Below are positions 3,856 to 63,265 of a DNA stretch of 64,000 bases, piece after piece. A model generated the notes under the pieces. The model ran no database searches. It worked only from the letters and a program-made list of their open reading frames with translations, and was not told the DNA's origin. This DNA comes from Knoellia flava TL1. Its GTDB lineage: Bacteria > Actinomycetota > Actinomycetes > Actinomycetales > Dermatophilaceae. The translations under genes were made by a program, and so were the position numbers. The first letter of the stretch is position 1. Each line of letters begins with the position of its first letter. The stretch covers positions 62,001 to 126,000 of the forward strand of contig NZ_AVPI01000045.1 in the NCBI RefSeq assembly GCF_000768675.1, written 5' to 3'.

Positions 3856-3880
3856 CGCGCACACGCCGGCTCGGCACGAC

Positions 3881-3940
3881 CGAGCCAGAAGTTGGTGAGC
3901 CGACCACCCACGGGTGGTCGGCTCACCGCTTCGTGGCTCG
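3881..3940. terminator. Long imperfect palindrome after hppA
   Basis: A perfect 16-bp stem (3894-3909 with 3912-3927) is extended by a further 7-bp arm pair (3881-3887 with 3934-3940) across a mismatched internal region. It sits directly after the hppA stop and has no T-tract, as is usual for actinobacterial terminators. Its right arm is part of a direct repeat found again after the next gene. Confidence 0.7.
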
Positions 3941-3944
3941 CTCG
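3921..3944 (+). repeat. Left copy of 24-bp direct repeat bracketing the AbiEi/DUF559-type gene
   Basis: This 24-base stretch matches 5060-5083 at 22 of 24 positions in the same orientation. The two copies lie about 1.1 kb apart on either side of the gene at 4000-4962, and each forms the right arm of a hairpin. Confidence 0.8.
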
Positions 3945-3999
3945 AGCCTGCCTGTGGACGACGGACGGTCGCGGCCCGGCGGTCCTGCCAGGATCGAGC

Positions 4000-4962
4000 A
4001 TGTGCCGAAGCCCAGACCCTCGTATGCCGGCCGGCATCCTTCTGCGGCCGACCGCCGACCTGCGCCGGCTCGGTGAGAGCCCTGACGACCGCGAGGCGGA
4101 CGGACTGGCGAAGTGGGTCCGGGTGCGGCACGGCGTCGTCGTCCGGCGCGACGTGTGGGCCGGTCTCGACTCCACCCAGCGACACGGTGCGTTCGTCCGC
4201 TCGACCGCGATGCAGATGCGAGCGGCCGAGCACCTGGTCTTCTCCCACACCTCAGCTGCTGCTGTGTGGGGACTGCCGCGCATCACGCCGTGGCCGCACC
4301 ACGCCTCTGTCACCTCCGACCGCCCCACGGCGCGCTCGTCGGGTCTCGTCAAAAGGCACATCGGCGCGGTCGAGCAGCGCGTCACGCTCGGCGGGCTGAC
4401 CGTCACGTCCGTCGCCCGGACCGTCATCGACCTGGCCCGGAGCGAGGAGCTCCCCGACGCCGTCGCCGCCGCAGACTTCGCCCTCCATCACGAACTGTGC
4501 CGGCGCGAGGACCTCGTGGCCGAGCTCGAGTGCGTCCCGGCAGGTGCCCGTGGCCGCGCTCGCGCCGCCCTCGTCGTCGACTTCGCGGACGCCGGAGCGA
4601 TGTCCGTCGGCGAGTCGATGTCGCGGGTCCAGATGTTCCGCCTCAACATTCCGCGACCGTCGCTGCAGGTGCGGGTGGACGATGCCGACGGGCTCGTCGG
4701 GTACTGCGACTTCGGTTGGGAGGGCGTCATGGGTGAGTTCGACGGTCGGTTCAAGTACGGCCTGACCGAGGATGTTGGGCGCGAGCAGGTCGCCGACGTG
4801 CTTTGGCGTGAGAAGCGACGTGAGGACCGGATCCGAGCCCGTGGTCACCGCATGGCGCGGTGGGTCTGGGCCGATGCGGCCCGGCCTCGCCGCATGGTTG
4901 AGATCCTCGGCGCCCAAGGCATCCACCCGACGCCCCGCAACACGTGGTTCGATGCTGCCTGA
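4000..4962 (+). CDS. AbiEi-type N-terminus plus DUF559-like nuclease fold protein
   Basis: The 320-residue product looks like the abundant actinobacterial family with an AbiEi-type N-terminal half and a DUF559/Vsr-like PD-(D/E)XK C-terminal half. Candidate active-site residues are E205 (VGESMSR), D237 (YCDFGW), then E246-F-D248 and K252 (GEFDGRFKY). The frame stays open upstream to 3892, but that extension would begin inside a hairpin; the ATG at 4000 has AGGA seven bases before it, and an ATG at 4024 is the alternative. No toxin or methyltransferase partner adjoins it. The N-terminal half resembles antitoxin/regulator domains, but DNA cleavage or regulation is unproven. A distant relative of the same architecture lies at 61308-62231. 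Confidence 0.75.
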   Translation: MCRSPDPRMPAGILLRPTADLRRLGESPDDREADGLAKWVRVRHGVVVRRDVWAGLDSTQRHGAFVRSTAMQMRAAEHLVFSHTSAAAVWGLPRITPWPHHASVTSDRPTARSSGLVKRHIGAVEQRVTLGGLTVTSVARTVIDLARSEELPDAVAAADFALHHELCRREDLVAELECVPAGARGRARAALVVDFADAGAMSVGESMSRVQMFRLNIPRPSLQVRVDDADGLVGYCDFGWEGVMGEFDGRFKYGLTEDVGREQVADVLWREKRREDRIRARGHRMARWVWADAARPRRMVEILGAQGIHPTPRNTWFDAA

Positions 4963-5014
4963 CGGGTGACTGCGCGTCCGCCGTCGTCCGACCCCACCAC
5001 GCAGGAAAGCCGTG

Positions 5015-5084
5015 CCGAGCGAGTCAGATCATGGTCAGCGAGGCTCTCATGAGTGGCTCGCTCACCACTTTGTGGCTCGCTCGG
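5015..5084. repeat. Imperfect palindrome downstream of the AbiEi/DUF559-type gene
   Basis: Arms 5015-5023 and 5076-5084 pair perfectly, as do 5037-5042 with 5057-5062 and 5032-5035 with 5064-5067, giving a long bulged hairpin. It lies between the gene and the promoter of the AIM24 gene. Confidence 0.6.
5060..5083 (+). repeat. Right copy of 24-bp direct repeat
   Basis: This is the second copy of the repeat at 3921-3944, with two mismatches in 24. It forms the right arm of the hairpin ending at 5084. Confidence 0.8.
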
Positions 5085-5145
5085 CGGGGAGCGGGCACAG
5101 CGCCGGTGGTGGCGGAGGTCGGGGGAGTGCGGTGAGGGGCGGCCC

Positions 5146-12919: not shown

Positions 12920-12933
12920 CCGGTCCTTCACAC

Positions 12934-12989
12934 CCGCTTGCGTCCGCACGTCTGGCGGTCATGGCCGCCAAAGGTGCGGACGCAAGCGG
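12934..12989. terminator. Hairpin terminator after the ABC operon
   Basis: Perfect 16-bp arms (12934-12949 with 12974-12989) enclose a second small stem. It lies just past the ABC operon stop at 12919, in a convergent intergenic region, and has no T-tract. Confidence 0.7.
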
Positions 12990-13013
12990 AGGTGAGCAGG
13001 CGGCATACGACAA

Positions 13014-13055
13014 CGTCCGCAGATGTGGGGCTCACGGGCCCCACATCTGCGGACG
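13014..13055. terminator. Second hairpin in the convergent region
   Basis: An 18-bp perfect stem (13014-13031 with 13038-13055) has a 6-base loop. It lies just before the stop of the oppositely oriented oxidoreductase gene and probably terminates that transcript. Confidence 0.75.
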
Positions 13056-17749: not shown

Positions 17750-17756
17750 CCGACGA

Positions 17757-17806
17757 ACGCGAGATGCCCCGTATGCCGGACGGCCGGCATACGGGGCATC
17801 TCGCGT
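17757..17806. terminator. Perfect bidirectional hairpin terminator
   Basis: A perfect 22-bp stem (17757-17778 with 17785-17806) encloses a 6-base loop, between convergent genes. Each arm contains one GTATGCC/GGCATAC heptamer. There is no T-tract. Confidence 0.85.
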
Positions 17807-17821
17807 CCGCAAGTGGCTGGG

Positions 17822-26019: not shown

Positions 26020-26107
26020 CAGACGACGGCGGACGCCTCCGGTGGAGGGTGCTCGGCGGGGTTCAGGGGCCCGTCGAGCATCTCCTCCCGGAGGCGTCCG
26101 CCGTCTG
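26020..26107. terminator. Long imperfect hairpin between convergent genes
   Basis: A 15-bp perfect stem (26028-26042 with 26088-26102) is extended outward across a 3-base insertion and inward by a second stem (around 26044-26054 with 26075-26088). It ends both the ABC operon and the convergent ligase operon. Confidence 0.7.
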
Positions 26108-38918: not shown

Positions 38919-38947
38919 GCCGCGTCTCAACTTTTGCTCCCCGTGCG

Positions 38948-39000
38948 GGAACCTTGAGGGTCCGGACGGAACATTTCCCTCCGGACCCTCAAGGTTCCCT
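38948..39000. terminator. Hairpin between the MerR gene and tmk
   Basis: A perfect 20-bp stem (38948-38967 with 38981-39000) has a 13-base loop. It follows the MerR stop by about 30 bases. Confidence 0.8.
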
Positions 39001-46932: not shown

Positions 46933-47649
46933 ATGGTGGACGTCAACGAGTTCGGCCTGCCCGTCGGCGCCCTGGTGCCGGGGTGGGAGGAGCGGCCCGC
47001 GCCGGGCGCAGTGGTGCTGGAGGGGCGCTACGTGCGGGTCGTCCCCCTCGACTCCGTGCACTACTCCGACCTCTTCGACGCGGTGTGCGGGCCGGAGGAC
47101 GGCGGGCTCTGGACCTACCGGCCGATCCCGCGCCCGACGTCGCTCGCCGCGCTGTGGATGCACTTGGCGGCCGGCGTCGACGACCCTGCCGCGGTCGCCT
47201 TCGCCTTCGTGCCGCTCGAGGGCGAACGCGCGGGCCGGGCGACCGGGATCGCGCACTACACGCGCATCGACCCGCGCACCGGCCAGATCGAGGTCGCCGG
47301 AGTGCTCCACGGCGCGGGCCTTCAACGCACTCGCGCGGCCACGGAGGCGATCTCGCTGCTCATGCGGCACGCCTTCGACGACCTCGGCTACCGCCGCTTC
47401 GAGTGGAAGTGCGACAGCCTCAACGAGCCGTCGCGCCGCGCCGCCGCACGCCTCGGGTTCACCTACGAGGGGCGGTTCCGCAACCACATGGTCACGCAGG
47501 GGCGCAACCGCGACACCGACTGGTTCTCGGTGACGAGCGAGGAGTGGCCGGCTGTCCGCGCGCGGCACGAGGCGTGGCTCGACCCGGCGAACTTCGACGA
47601 CGAGGGCCGCCAGCGCAGCCAACTCAGCCCTCGGACGGGTCGAGAGTAG
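46933..47649 (+). CDS. GNAT N-acetyltransferase, RimJ/RimL type
   Basis: The 238-residue protein matches the RimJ/RimL-like acetyltransferases: YVRVVPLDSVHYSDLFDAVCG at the start, AGRATGIAHYTRIDPRTGQIEVAGVLHGAGLQRTRAATEAISLLMRHAFDDLGYRRFEWKCDSLNEPSRRAAARLGFTYEGRFRNHMV as the acetyl-CoA region. The Q/R-x-x-R-A turn of GNATs reads LQRTRAATEA. Many homologues modify small molecules or toxins. Its stop codon is inside a terminator hairpin. Confidence 0.9.
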   Translation: MVDVNEFGLPVGALVPGWEERPAPGAVVLEGRYVRVVPLDSVHYSDLFDAVCGPEDGGLWTYRPIPRPTSLAALWMHLAAGVDDPAAVAFAFVPLEGERAGRATGIAHYTRIDPRTGQIEVAGVLHGAGLQRTRAATEAISLLMRHAFDDLGYRRFEWKCDSLNEPSRRAAARLGFTYEGRFRNHMVTQGRNRDTDWFSVTSEEWPAVRARHEAWLDPANFDDEGRQRSQLSPRTGRE

Positions 47650-47697
47650 AGAGAGTCCCGCCCCAGGTCGCTGGAGGCGGGACTCTCTCTACTCTCG
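47641..47697. terminator. Bidirectional hairpin terminator, GNAT and ppa
   Basis: A perfect 22-bp stem (47641-47662 with 47676-47697) with a 13-base loop lies between convergent genes; the GNAT stop codon (47647-47649) is in its left arm. Confidence 0.85.
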
Positions 47698-47720
47698 ACG
47701 GCTTCGCCGCCGCAAGGGCG

Positions 47721-53730: not shown

Positions 53731-53740
53731 CCCCAGCGGG

Positions 53741-53810
53741 ACTGATTGCCCGTTCGCGCTCATCTCGAGAAGGCGCGGCTTCGGAAGGTCGGCGCGAACG
53801 GGCAATCAGT
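53741..53810. terminator. Long hairpin between hpt and ftsH
   Basis: A perfect 19-bp stem (53741-53759 with 53792-53810) encloses 32 bases that hold a further GC-rich stem. It follows the hpt stop by 10 bases, in a 261-base gap before ftsH. Confidence 0.75.
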
Positions 53811-53991
53811 CACAGGTGCAGCCGCAAGGAGCCCGGAACACGCGGCATACGCCGGTCGTTGTTCGGTCGGACGCACCCGGGACCGGAAGGACCGTCACGG
53901 GTAGCGTGTGTACCCAGCCAGTGACGCGCGAGCGTGCACGGATGAGCTCGTTGATCAGGAGGACGTGGGGCCACCGGCCTCATTCACATTC

Positions 53992-60143: not shown

Positions 60144-61086
60144 GGCCCCGAGTATGCCGCGTCATCGCCCAGTGGAACCCGCCGAGCCCGCGCGCGTCGG
60201 TGAGGGCCGCCACCGTGGACGACCGACCCAGCGCCCGCACGTAGCCGAGCGGGTCCGTCGTCGCCATGGCATGGTCCGGCGTGGCAGCCATGAACCCGAG
60301 CCGGTGGAGCACCTCGCGCTGGGTGACGACCTCGTCGGCCCGGAGCGAGTCGGTCGCGACGTGCGCCGTGAGATCGCGTCGTCCGTCCGGCACCACCTCG
60401 GTCACCTGTCCCTCCCTGTATGCCGTGAGCGTGCCGTGCGCGGGTCGCGTCGCCCGCGTGTGGCCGTAGTCCACGGCGACGGTGAGGCCAGAAGCGCTGC
60501 GGCACACCAGCTCCCGCCACGCGAGGTCACGTGCGAGCCCGACCTCGACCCGGTCGCCCGGCGTCACGGCCGGCCACCAGGCGCCTACCCACGCGCGGTC
60601 GTCGCCGCCGAGCTCGGCGCCCAGTGACTCGGTGCCGTCGTCGTCGACGAGCACCTCGCGCAGCACCCCGTCGTCGTCGACCTCGGCCACGGTGCACGGC
60701 ACGACGTCGAGCCACTCGTGGGCGAGGACGAGGGCGTCGAGGTCGCGCAGGTCGTCGGGCAGCGCAGAGCCGCCGGGGGAGCGCAGCCACGTGACGGGGT
60801 CCGGCAGCCCGCCCGGGCGCTCGACGACGTCGACCCCGACGAGCTCGAGGTCCGGGCGCGCGTCGTGGAGGTGCCCGAGCAGCTCGCCGCGCCCGCACGC
60901 CAGGTCGACGACACGGCATACGCCGGCGTCGTCCGCGAGGCGACCCACGACCTCGGCGAGGACGGCACCGAGGGGACCGTGCGCCGAGGTCGTGAAGTGA
61001 CCCGCCGGGCCCTCGGCGCGGCGGTAGAAGCCGTGGGGCCCGTAGAGCGCGTCCCACCACGCGTCACGCCAGGGTCGAGGGCTCAC
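60136..61086 (-). CDS. SAM-dependent methyltransferase, MidA/NDUFAF7-like (DUF185)
   Basis: The 316-residue protein has [36 protein letters not shown] at the N-terminus, the SAM loop [15 protein letters not shown], and the family motifs [14 protein letters not shown] and [24 protein letters not shown]. This matches the MidA/NDUFAF7 group, which methylates an arginine of the NuoD homologue in mitochondria. The chain is somewhat shorter than the 380-440 residues usual in that family. GTG at 61086 has TAGGTT six bases before it. It is the first gene of a two-gene operon with the NuoD-like gene. Confidence 0.82.
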
Positions 61087-61272
61087 CCCCGCAACCTACG
61101 GCAGCAAAAGCGTTCGCGTCCCGAGCAGTCCGACGGCACACTCGATGCAGTGAAACCCCTCACCAGGAACGAACGACCCCGACGCCCGCGAGCAGTTCGT
61201 CGAGCGGCGGGTCGCCGGGCTCCGCGAGCGGTCCGCGAGGTTCGTCGCGCAGGTCTGAGGATCCCCACTCCC

Positions 61273-61322
61273 GCCTTGTGTGCCTGAGCGGAACTCAGGG
61301 CTTCCGCTCAGGCACACAAGGC
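61273..61322. repeat. 50-bp palindrome, left copy bracketing the second AbiEi/DUF559 gene
   Basis: A perfect 21-bp stem (61273-61293 with 61302-61322) has an 8-base loop. It is 46 of 50 identical to the copy at 62297-62346, with three of the differences in the loop. The gene's own stop codon (61308-61310) and its last residues are encoded within the hairpin. Confidence 0.9.
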
Positions 61323-62231
61323 AGCGAGGCCGAGGTTCCGCAGGTCGGCAGCGAGCTGGAACGGCTCGTCCCGGATCTCGCGTGCCGTCGCCCTGACGAC
61401 GATCCGGCCCGGCGTCGTGAGGCCGCGCTGGCGTTGGATGTCGCCCTCCCAGTGCTCGACCTCCATGTGGAATGCGCCGTCGACCTCCAGGACGAGCACC
61501 TCTCCGGTCGGCAGCGTCCACTCGCAGTCGGTGTAGCGCCACCGGCCCGAAGAGTCCTGACGGCGCCGTTGCCGGGCCGGAACGGGAAGGCCGAAGTCGG
61601 TGCACATGCGCTTCACGTCGACCTCGGCAACCGACTGGGCACCACCCTCGAACTCGGTCAGCAGCAGTCTGAACCGCGGAGCTCGGCGCAGCGGCTTCAT
61701 TCGCTCCATCTGTGTCCTGAGCGCGGCAGGGGTCGTGAGCCGCTGCTGCACGACGGCGGCAAGCAAGCCCTGAGCCGTGCGCCAGTTGGGCTCATGGGCG
61801 GCGCAGAGCAGAGCCGCCGGCTCTACCCGCGCAAGGGGCAGATCGCGACCCGTTGTGCGCCAAACCTCGAGAGGGCGCCGGGTCCGGAACCAGTCGATGC
61901 CGTCGAGCGGCGCGAGGTGCTCCTCGTCATCAACGAGGATCGTGATGCGCTCTCGGCGCCAGTTCCTGAGCCCGTGGTGCTCCAGTGCCGTGTAGCCGCC
62001 GACAATCGCCGGAGGCCCGGCATGCAGAACTCCGAGCCAGGCCTGCTGCTCCCGGGTCAGCGCACCGGTGAAGGTGCTGACGACGACCGAGCTCCGTGCC
62101 GACCACCTCCTCGCGGTCAGCTGGGCGTCGACGTGCTTCCGCGTGAAGCCAGCGACGCGAAGCTGTCGACGAGCCACGAGACCGGCCTGGGCATCGGCGA
62201 ACGCGAGAACCTTCGGCGGAAGCGGCTTCAT
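61308..62231 (-). CDS. AbiEi-type N-terminus plus DUF559-like nuclease fold protein, second copy
   Basis: The 307-residue protein has the same two-part layout as the gene at 4000-4962 but is a distant relative. The N-terminal half is AbiEi-like; the C-terminal half is DUF559-like with E203 (SVAEVD), D235 (YTDCEW) and E249-V-D251 (LVLEVDGAFH), then IVVRATAREIRDEPFQLAADLRNLG, the closing helix of the fold. The ATG at 62231 is the first in frame inside the bracket. No clear Shine-Dalgarno sequence is seen. Both flanks carry the same 50-bp palindrome in direct orientation. Confidence 0.8.
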   Translation of the reverse strand: MKPLPPKVLAFADAQAGLVARRQLRVAGFTRKHVDAQLTARRWSARSSVVVSTFTGALTREQQAWLGVLHAGPPAIVGGYTALEHHGLRNWRRERITILVDDEEHLAPLDGIDWFRTRRPLEVWRTTGRDLPLARVEPAALLCAAHEPNWRTAQGLLAAVVQQRLTTPAALRTQMERMKPLRRAPRFRLLLTEFEGGAQSVAEVDVKRMCTDFGLPVPARQRRRQDSSGRWRYTDCEWTLPTGEVLVLEVDGAFHMEVEHWEGDIQRQRGLTTPGRIVVRATAREIRDEPFQLAADLRNLGLAALCA

Positions 62232-62296
62232 GCGCCGATCGTGTCGGTCATTGCGATCGTGACCGTGGAGTTCTCCACAGCCACGCCCACACCTCG

Positions 62297-62346
62297 GCCT
62301 TGTGTGCCTGAGCGGAACCTTGGGCTTCCGCTGAGGCACACAAGGC
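62297..62346. repeat. 50-bp palindrome, right copy
   Basis: The 21-bp stem (62297-62317 with 62326-62346) has one mismatch and an 8-base loop. It matches 61273-61322 in direct orientation. It ends one base before the TAGGTT box of the DUF2520 gene. Confidence 0.9.
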
Positions 62347-62347
62347 A

Positions 62348-62353
62348 TAGGTT
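62348..62353 (+). promoter_or_regulatory. TAGGTT -10 box of the DUF2520-panC operon
   Basis: The box ends six bases before the GTG at 62360, and begins one base after the palindrome, so the hairpin occupies the -35 region. Confidence 0.55.
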
Positions 62354-62359
62354 GGCTGC

Positions 62360-63265
62360 GTGAATGGAGGCGAGCACCCCGCGCGGCTGTCGGTCGGCAT
62401 CATCGGGGCCGGTCGCGTCGGGGCCGTCCTCGGTGCCGCCCTCGCCCGCGCGGGGCACCGGATCCAGGCCGCGTATGCCGTGAGCGCCGAGAGCCGCGAA
62501 CGTGCCGGCGCGCTCCTGCCGGGAGTGCCGCTCAAGGAGATCCCCGACGTCATCGACGGAGCCGACCTCGTGCTCCTCGCCGTGCCCGACGACGCGCTGC
62601 CCGAGCTGGTGGCGGGGCTGGCGGCCACGGAGACGTGGCAGGCGGGCCAGATCGTCATCCACACGAGTGGCCGGTTCGGCGCCGACGTCCTGCGGCCCGC
62701 GATGTCCGCGCACATCCTGCCGGTCGCGATCCACCCGGCGATGACCTTCACCGGGACGGCGCTCGACCTCGGACGGCTCGAGGAGTGCGCCTTCGGGGTC
62801 ACCGGTCCGGACGCCCTGCGACCCATGGCCGAGGCGCTCGTCGTCGAGATGGGCGGCGAGCCGGTGTGGGTCGCCGAGGACCAGCGGGCGGCCTACCACG
62901 CGGCCCTGGCGCACGGCTCGAACCACCTCGTCACCCTTGTCGCACAGGCGATGGAGGTGCTCGCGGCCGCCGGCGTCGAGCAGCCGCGCAGCGTCCTCGG
63001 ACCGCTCGCTCGGGCCGCGCTCGACAACGCCCTGCGGCTGGGTGACGCAGCCCTCACCGGACCGGTCGCCCGCGGCGATGTGAGTACCGTGGGCACGCAC
63101 CTGCGCGAGCTCGACCGGATCTCGCCCGAGATCAGGGCGACCTACGTCGCCCTGGCCCGTGCCACCGCGGTGCGCGCTCTCGAGAGCGGGCGGCTCCGGC
63201 CGTCGGCCGCAGAGCCCTTGCTCGACACCCTCGCCGACCCGGAGCCCCAGGAGCCGACACCGTGA
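62360..63265 (+). CDS. Rossmann-fold DUF2520 protein
   Basis: The 301-residue protein has an N-terminal NAD(P)-binding loop ([17 protein letters not shown]) and the DUF2520 helical C-terminal domain ([29 protein letters not shown]). [13 protein letters not shown] lies at the domain junction. It overlaps panC by GTGA, an order seen in many actinobacteria, so a role in pantothenate metabolism is suggested. It might be a ketopantoate-reductase-like enzyme, but this is unproven. Confidence 0.88.

Follow-up and report, generated by a model that had tools for sequence, protein, structure and literature searches.

Matched palindromes around an AbiEi-DUF559 gene of Knoellia suggest a REP-like mobile palindrome system in Actinobacteriota

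In the window, by which we mean the whole 64-kb stretch of Knoellia flava TL1 DNA analyzed here, two near-identical palindromes enclose a gene for an AbiEi/DUF559-like protein, and matched palindromes, often of a sequence of their own, enclose related genes elsewhere in Actinobacteriota. Further copies are scattered through several of the genomes. These matched palindromes and scattered copies suggest a previously unrecognized kind of mobile palindrome system. Judging from the sequences, we consider it fairly probable that the gene, together with its palindromes, represents one case of a REP-like system widespread among actinobacteria, in which an AbiEi-DUF559 partner would recognize and spread its cognate palindrome.

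The gene (61308-62234, minus strand) encodes a protein of 308 amino acids. The left palindrome (61273-61322, unstranded), at the 3' end of the gene, has a perfect 21-bp stem and an 8-base loop, and the right palindrome (62297-62346, unstranded), just upstream of a DUF2520 gene, has a similar stem with one mismatch. The original prediction that the two are near-identical and enclose a single gene was confirmed: 46 of their 50 bp are identical and 4 differ, the left palindrome covers the stop codon and the final codons of the gene (..ALCA*), and the start codon is 62 bp from the right palindrome. Folding of four 60-nt strands, covering both palindromes, gave -42.3 to -49.5 kcal/mol, and for each of the four strands none of 200 dinucleotide shuffles folded as well. 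The window contains 42 hairpin pairs spaced by 0.4 to 2.5 kb, of which only two score above 17, namely, the pair at 61273/62297 (score 42) and a pair at 3873/5014 (score 32), and both of these lie around AbiEi-type genes. Plain terminators were rejected as the identity of the palindromes because the region 60900-62600 contains no T-rich terminator-like site, and a known structured RNA was rejected because Rfam, searched over the whole window at gathering scores, returned one tRNA only and no match at the palindromes. The neighbors of the gene encode a Methyltransf_28 protein and a Rossmann-like/DUF2520 protein. Neither of these two neighbors, which were the genes checked, is an AbiEii toxin (nucleotidyltransferase) gene, and a classical AbiE pair was rejected for the absence of this toxin gene.

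In its N-terminal two thirds, the window protein is, by profile and fold, a putative AbiEi-like DNA-binding protein. PADLOC AbiEi profiles match residues 9-180 (61695-62210, minus strand) with an E value of 3.6e-7. An AlphaFold2 model was obtained with a mean pLDDT of 86.5 (residues 255-272 lie under 50), and its best Foldseek match was the AbiEi antitoxin 6y8q (E 1.3e-3, probability 1.00, TM score of 0.64 over the target); no Foldseek match reached an E value of 0.001. The C-terminal part had no confident solved relative among the best 50 structural matches listed, and a sequence-profile search of solved structures returned one match, at chance level. This part (residues about 200-293; 61356-61637, minus strand) is DUF559/PD-(D/E)XK-like, and DUF559 is probably related to Vsr. 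The early assignment of the gene to the AbiEi/DUF559 family holds, with the qualification that the window protein itself matches the Pfam DUF559 profile with an E value of 0.026, below the Pfam cut-off; among the members of alignment A1, 11 of 15 match this profile at E values up to 0.1 (best 1e-5). Residues E204, D236, E250, D252, H256, D265, and R268 are invariant across the 15 sequences of A1. The conserved acidic residues (E204, D236, E250, D252, and D265) fit catalysis, and this part is a predicted nuclease. At E values up to 10, Pfam returned AbiEi_1, DUF559, and MTES_1575 only for the window protein, with no Y1/HUH tyrosine transposase domain, and a RAYT identity was rejected for the absence of the Y1 domain. 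Pfam scans of the window protein and family members revealed no transposase domain, and an NCBIfam search gave no match. Substitution rates indicate purifying selection on the gene (dN/dS of about 0.10-0.24; dS reaches 1.8), and its identity is 66-80% versus 86-90% for the neighboring gene (one neighbor, four genomes).

We compared the locus in nine Knoellia genomes (G000 to G008, with G000 being the window genome), using the neighboring DUF2520 gene as anchor. The gene is present in four of them (G000, G003, G004, and G005), and the palindrome pair, whose presence around orthologues had been proposed as a check, was observed at all four of these window-locus orthologues found in Knoellia. The outer arms, GCCTTGTGTG..CACACAAGGC, are common to the four species; the inner arms and stems vary between species and are alike between both copies of one species. 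The remaining five genomes (G001, G002, G006, G007, and G008) lack the gene at this locus. The idea that an empty site would contain a single palindrome was borne out in part: G001 has a decayed whole palindrome (local score of 16) and G006 one palindrome arm (local score of 17), with none of 300 shuffles matching either, whereas the vacant sites in G002, G007, and G008 gave no palindrome remnant above shuffles. As one-palindrome remnants were found in just two of the five gene-less congeners, a gain of the unit solely via a ready-made palindrome was rejected. No target-site duplication was readable at the compared sites, the species being too diverged. The gene and the DUF2520 gene are located on opposite strands in G000 and on the same strand in G003, G004, and G005, which indicates that the unit was inverted between species, although an independent insertion in the other orientation may be an alternative. 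At the corresponding place in K. koreensis, tblastn retrieved a gene with 54% identity, and the palindromes there read TTGAGTGCC..GGCACTCAA where those of family A, as we call the palindrome of the window gene, read TTGTGTGCC..GGCACACAA. Next to the left palindrome of the window, at 61150-61258, there is the remnant of an FBP_C-type gene, with start and end present and the middle missing; the corresponding place in G008 has an intact FBP_C gene (Pfam FBP_C, E 3e-49), as do, by reading, those in G007 and G006.

A search beside other DUF559 genes had also been proposed, and 39 of 57 loci have matched hairpins on both sides (local score of at least 19), including loci from Nocardioides, Microbacterium, and other Actinobacteriota. 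These palindromes often have their own sequence, matched within the locus. The set of 57 consists of 40 stretches (41 of the 80 matches listed), 14 of 15 named loci, and three of the four window-locus orthologues; with the four orthologues, it covers all 35 Knoellia matches among those listed. A G004 duplicate among the named loci was left out, as was the window-locus orthologue of G004, which is itself bracketed. When upstream and downstream hairpins from different loci were paired, 70 of 3192 mismatched pairs reached a score of 19 (median of 7, 95th percentile of 14, 99th percentile of 25), and the top ones were loci of one palindrome family. The control gene, DUF2520, reached 19 at none of 30 loci, with a best score of 14. 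Among the 18 loci unmatched at this threshold, three are cut by contig ends, and at another one (L146) the hairpins share a word in swapped order. The own genome G000 contains seven members of the gene family, just two of which are bracketed. We also drew 296 genomes from the phylum, 68 of which have the family, and fetched 29 loci, leaving out the own locus. Eight of these 29 loci scored at least 24 and 21 had no matched pair, as compared to a maximum of 17 among 812 mismatched pairs. Long repeats of about 100 bp, whose stems are weak, occur in both flanks of L149 and L156; those of L149 are nearly identical, and the top score of this locus is due to the long repeat. The family B gene of G006 (L141) is broken into two reading frames but retains its palindrome pair.

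The palindromes vary in concert within genomes and together with their proteins. Across 41 palindromes of family A, pairing is observed in 815 of 857 stem cells, a figure favored by the choice of these copies as hairpins, and swapping arms between copies reduced the pairing to a mean of 0.83 (maximum of 0.86 among 500). The identity of the inner arms of family A is 0.77 within genomes, as compared to 0.62 between them (0 of 2000 label shuffles). Inner stem types do not map strictly onto species: several are found in G005, one of them similar to the G004 type, and the G004 type also occurs in G001. Nearly all family A copies have the ends GCCTTG..CAAGGC, and other families differ. At one syntenic solo site (L006/L098), G000 and G004 each carry the inner stem of their own genome. 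Protein similarity correlates with palindrome similarity over 35 bracketed loci (Mantel 0.41, 0 of 1000 permutations), with shared ancestry remaining a possible cause.

The unit had been thought exchangeable, and its inversion between species agrees with this, as does a protein-palindrome family whose locus varies from one species to another. Orientation varies in three syntenic groups, namely, the window locus, L118/L139 versus L133, and L123/L138/L140/L142/L145 versus L128/L130. A family of the GTGCTGCAG type is found at the L128/L130 locus in G002 and G003 and elsewhere in G005 (L137), and the G005 copy of the L128/L130 locus holds another family (L138). Two family A palindromes in G004 (L097, 1717-2735) are 0.96 kb apart; a second DUF559 cassette at this pair was rejected, its contents being ArsR-type and AHSA1-type genes. 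The counterpart in G005 (L113) has one palindrome and lacks the ArsR/AHSA1 segment. In G001 (L073, 1492-2627), a PadR-type gene lies between two palindromes of family A that are separated by 1.07 kb.

A search for the window palindrome elsewhere in its own genome, as had been proposed, yielded two further places. The numbers of family A solo sites in the genomes with the gene are 2 (G000), 6 (G003), 11 (G004), and 8 (G005), and in genomes without the gene at the window locus 2 (G001, at that search threshold, with further copies in another search), 3 (G006), and 2 (G007); none were found in G002 and G008. For family C, there are 11 solo sites in G003, where the gene is present, and none in G004 despite the gene, and genomes without the gene have 2 (G006), 1 (G007), and 1 (G005). 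The six genomes with the family B gene have 5 (G002), 3, 2, 1, 0, and 0 solo sites of its palindrome, and the three Knoellia genomes without this gene gave no match. In this comparison of few genomes, uncorrected for phylogeny, palindrome abundance was tied to the cognate gene. The tie is imperfect for families A and C, since family A palindromes occur in the gene-less G001, G006, and G007 and solo copies of family C are absent from G004.

In Microbacterium azadirachtae, the palindrome of its gene has 62 sites, 5 of which are beside the gene; the sites form 40 clusters. BIME-like tandem arrays are present (L284 and L290), and 14 of the 22 spacings between tandem copies fall at 70-77 bp. Three further genomes, whose related genes have other palindromes, gave 0, 0, and 1 matches to this palindrome. 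A query combining palindrome and gene, of a length that makes it insensitive to lone palindromes, retrieved only M. azadirachtae from 59 Microbacterium genomes (1/59). Solo sites of families A, B, and C were placed with a rough frame-based gene call, and 37 could be placed in 39 stretches, two of which contain no solo palindrome at the placement threshold. Thirty of the 37 are intergenic, with 11 between convergent, 13 between same-strand, and 6 between divergent genes, and the other 7 are inside a frame. The simple movable cassette of the original prediction stands as far as the unit is exchangeable, but the palindromes themselves disperse, which is more REP-like. By eye, the rpoC-GNAT spacer contains a family A palindrome in G000, a GCGTCTGCG type in G001 and G003, and a CGCAACGTCAGCG type in G007, the last two types resembling palindromes around the DUF559 genes L125/L146 and L143. 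In the same inspection, none of these palindromes was seen in the spacers of G002, G004, G006, and G008, and that of G005 is truncated where its contig ends. YATR-like motifs are present at the loop centers of palindromes.

REP/RAYT is among the closest known systems. According to PMC2817692, RAYTs were proposed as mobilizers of REPs because their genes lie between two REPs, co-evolve with them, and evolve fast, and because REP abundance follows the gene. As compared to REPtrons and BIMEs (PMC2817692 and PMC3733652), the system studied here is similar in the location of the gene between two palindromes, the mostly intergenic dispersed copies, the tandem arrays, the tie of cognate copies to the gene, the co-variation of palindrome and protein, and a gene that evolves faster than its neighbor. 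It differs in that the Knoellia-type protein is not an HUH/Y1 transposase, that the family A palindromes have about 50 bp and long stems and lack the GTAG tag, and that the AbiEi-DUF559 system is found in Actinobacteriota. Given the REP/RAYT-like features, the unlike protein, and the missing GTAG tag, we interpret the system as REP-like, with an AbiEi-DUF559 protein as the partner; we take it to be new in kind and to resemble REP/RAYT in behavior through what would be convergence.

Other systems share single features with the unit. Like AbiEi of type IV toxin-antitoxin systems, the window protein has the N-terminal two thirds matched by profile and fold, but it possesses an extra DUF559-like C terminus, has no AbiEii partner next door, and has palindromes at both gene ends and dispersed. 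The EDxHD/Vsr-like homing endonucleases are similar in having a nuclease-like part in which E, D, H, and D are conserved and in being possibly selfish genes, whereas the window gene leaves its presumed target uninterrupted and the solo palindromes multiply. IS elements with terminal inverted repeats and MITEs are likewise a gene between repeated ends and short noncoding copies; here, in contrast, each end is a whole palindrome, a dispersed copy is one palindrome and not an end pair, and a transposase domain is absent in the Pfam scans.

For the REP-like system, we propose that the AbiEi-like part would bind the palindrome, as duplex or extruded hairpin, that the DUF559 part would nick or cut it, and that host repair or replication would copy the palindrome, and at times the whole unit, into new sites. 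A PD-(D/E)XK nuclease is by itself no transposase, so this proposal requires host factors. Inversion of the unit could result from synapsis or recombination between its ends, and vacant sites with one palindrome from deletion between these ends.

We considered whether the palindromes might be targets and not movers. In such a homing-type drive, which we regard as unlikely, the nuclease would cut vacant palindromes or unit-less alleles, and repair from the occupied copy would convert them, spreading the gene through gene conversion. The one-palindrome remnants at the vacant sites of G001 and G006 are in accordance with this, and the within-genome sharing of inner stems could be gene conversion. 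A homing gene, however, normally interrupts its own target, which renders the occupied allele immune, whereas both palindromes are whole around the window gene, so that the presumed target is uninterrupted if the palindrome is the target; moreover, three of the five gene-less congeners have no palindrome at the site, and solo copies multiply without the gene. The invariant E, D, H, and D have an order like that in the EDxHD homing endonucleases, a family named in PMC3943268. A similarly low probability is assigned to the palindromes being operators, in which case an AbiEi-like repressor would bind inverted repeats, the upstream copy would serve autoregulation, the dispersed copies would form a regulon, and the nuclease-like part would be incidental. 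AbiEi of Streptococcus agalactiae and Rv2827c autoregulate via inverted repeats in their own promoters, as stated in PMC7319586, and the best fold match of the modeled window protein is an AbiEi. The second palindrome copy is, however, at the 3' end of the gene, an AbiEii toxin gene is absent next door, and maintained hairpin pairing, tandem arrays, and as many as 62 copies are odd for operators. The placement of the 37 solo copies is also unlike a promoter pattern, although the 19 located upstream of some gene stay compatible. Since AbiEi proteins bind promoter inverted repeats, an operator role is possible, and it may coexist with a mobile role.

Two further explanations appear to us very improbable. 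Passive palindromes, either terminators or quasi-palindromes, might have stayed matched through template switching and recombination, with the gene merely between two of them. Hairpin self-correction is a known mutational process, and 24 of the 37 placed solo copies are between convergent or same-strand genes. This explanation is opposed by the lack of a T-rich terminator-like site around the unit, by the matched pairs tracking the gene type (none of the 30 control loci, and both high-scoring window pairs), and by palindrome sequence tracking protein sequence. Hardly to be expected, too, is that another enzyme, such as a host recombinase or an unlinked transposase, recognizes the palindromes and moves the unit, with the AbiEi-DUF559 gene as passenger. 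The palindrome-bounded segments with ArsR and AHSA1 (G004) and PadR (G001), which have no nuclease-like gene, would agree with this, but the repeated bracketing of one gene family by many unlike palindromes, with co-varying sequence, is not expected of a passenger.

A more far-reaching form of the REP-like explanation, the chances of which we see as evenly balanced, is that AbiEi-DUF559 proteins mobilize a new REP-like palindrome class across Actinobacteriota. Each protein lineage would recognize and copy its own hairpin, with a metal-dependent nuclease in place of the tyrosine transposase, rewrite the genome copies in concert, invert its own unit, and seed tandem arrays. If this is true, REP-type palindromes also arose in partnership with a second enzyme, unrelated to the first, and a function emerges for many actinobacterial DUF559/AbiEi genes that had been unexplained. 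The matched palindromes represent a predicted DNA target for each protein, and dozens of protein-target pairs are open to direct tests. The invertible or deletable units and the dispersed hairpins bear on genome evolution in Actinobacteriota. Within the open-license literature (titles and abstract starts), we found nothing that connects dispersed palindromes to DUF559 or AbiEi-DUF559 genes.

The window contains a second unit, at 3873-5085. Its gene (3994-4962, plus strand, start codon uncertain) is of AbiEi type, belongs to another subfamily, and is without Pfam match; it is located between a left palindrome at 3873-3948 and a right palindrome at 5014-5085, both unstranded. Strong hairpins without a nearby matching partner are present at 17754-17809, 26025-26105, 38947-38999, 47639-47699, and 53740-53811. 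Two adjoining strong hairpins at 12928-13055 have the arms GCGTCCGCA/CGTCCGCAGA, which resemble words in the hairpins beside the DUF559 genes L127 and L135, and are perhaps solo copies of another palindrome family. The palindrome of the second unit has two solo copies elsewhere in G000.
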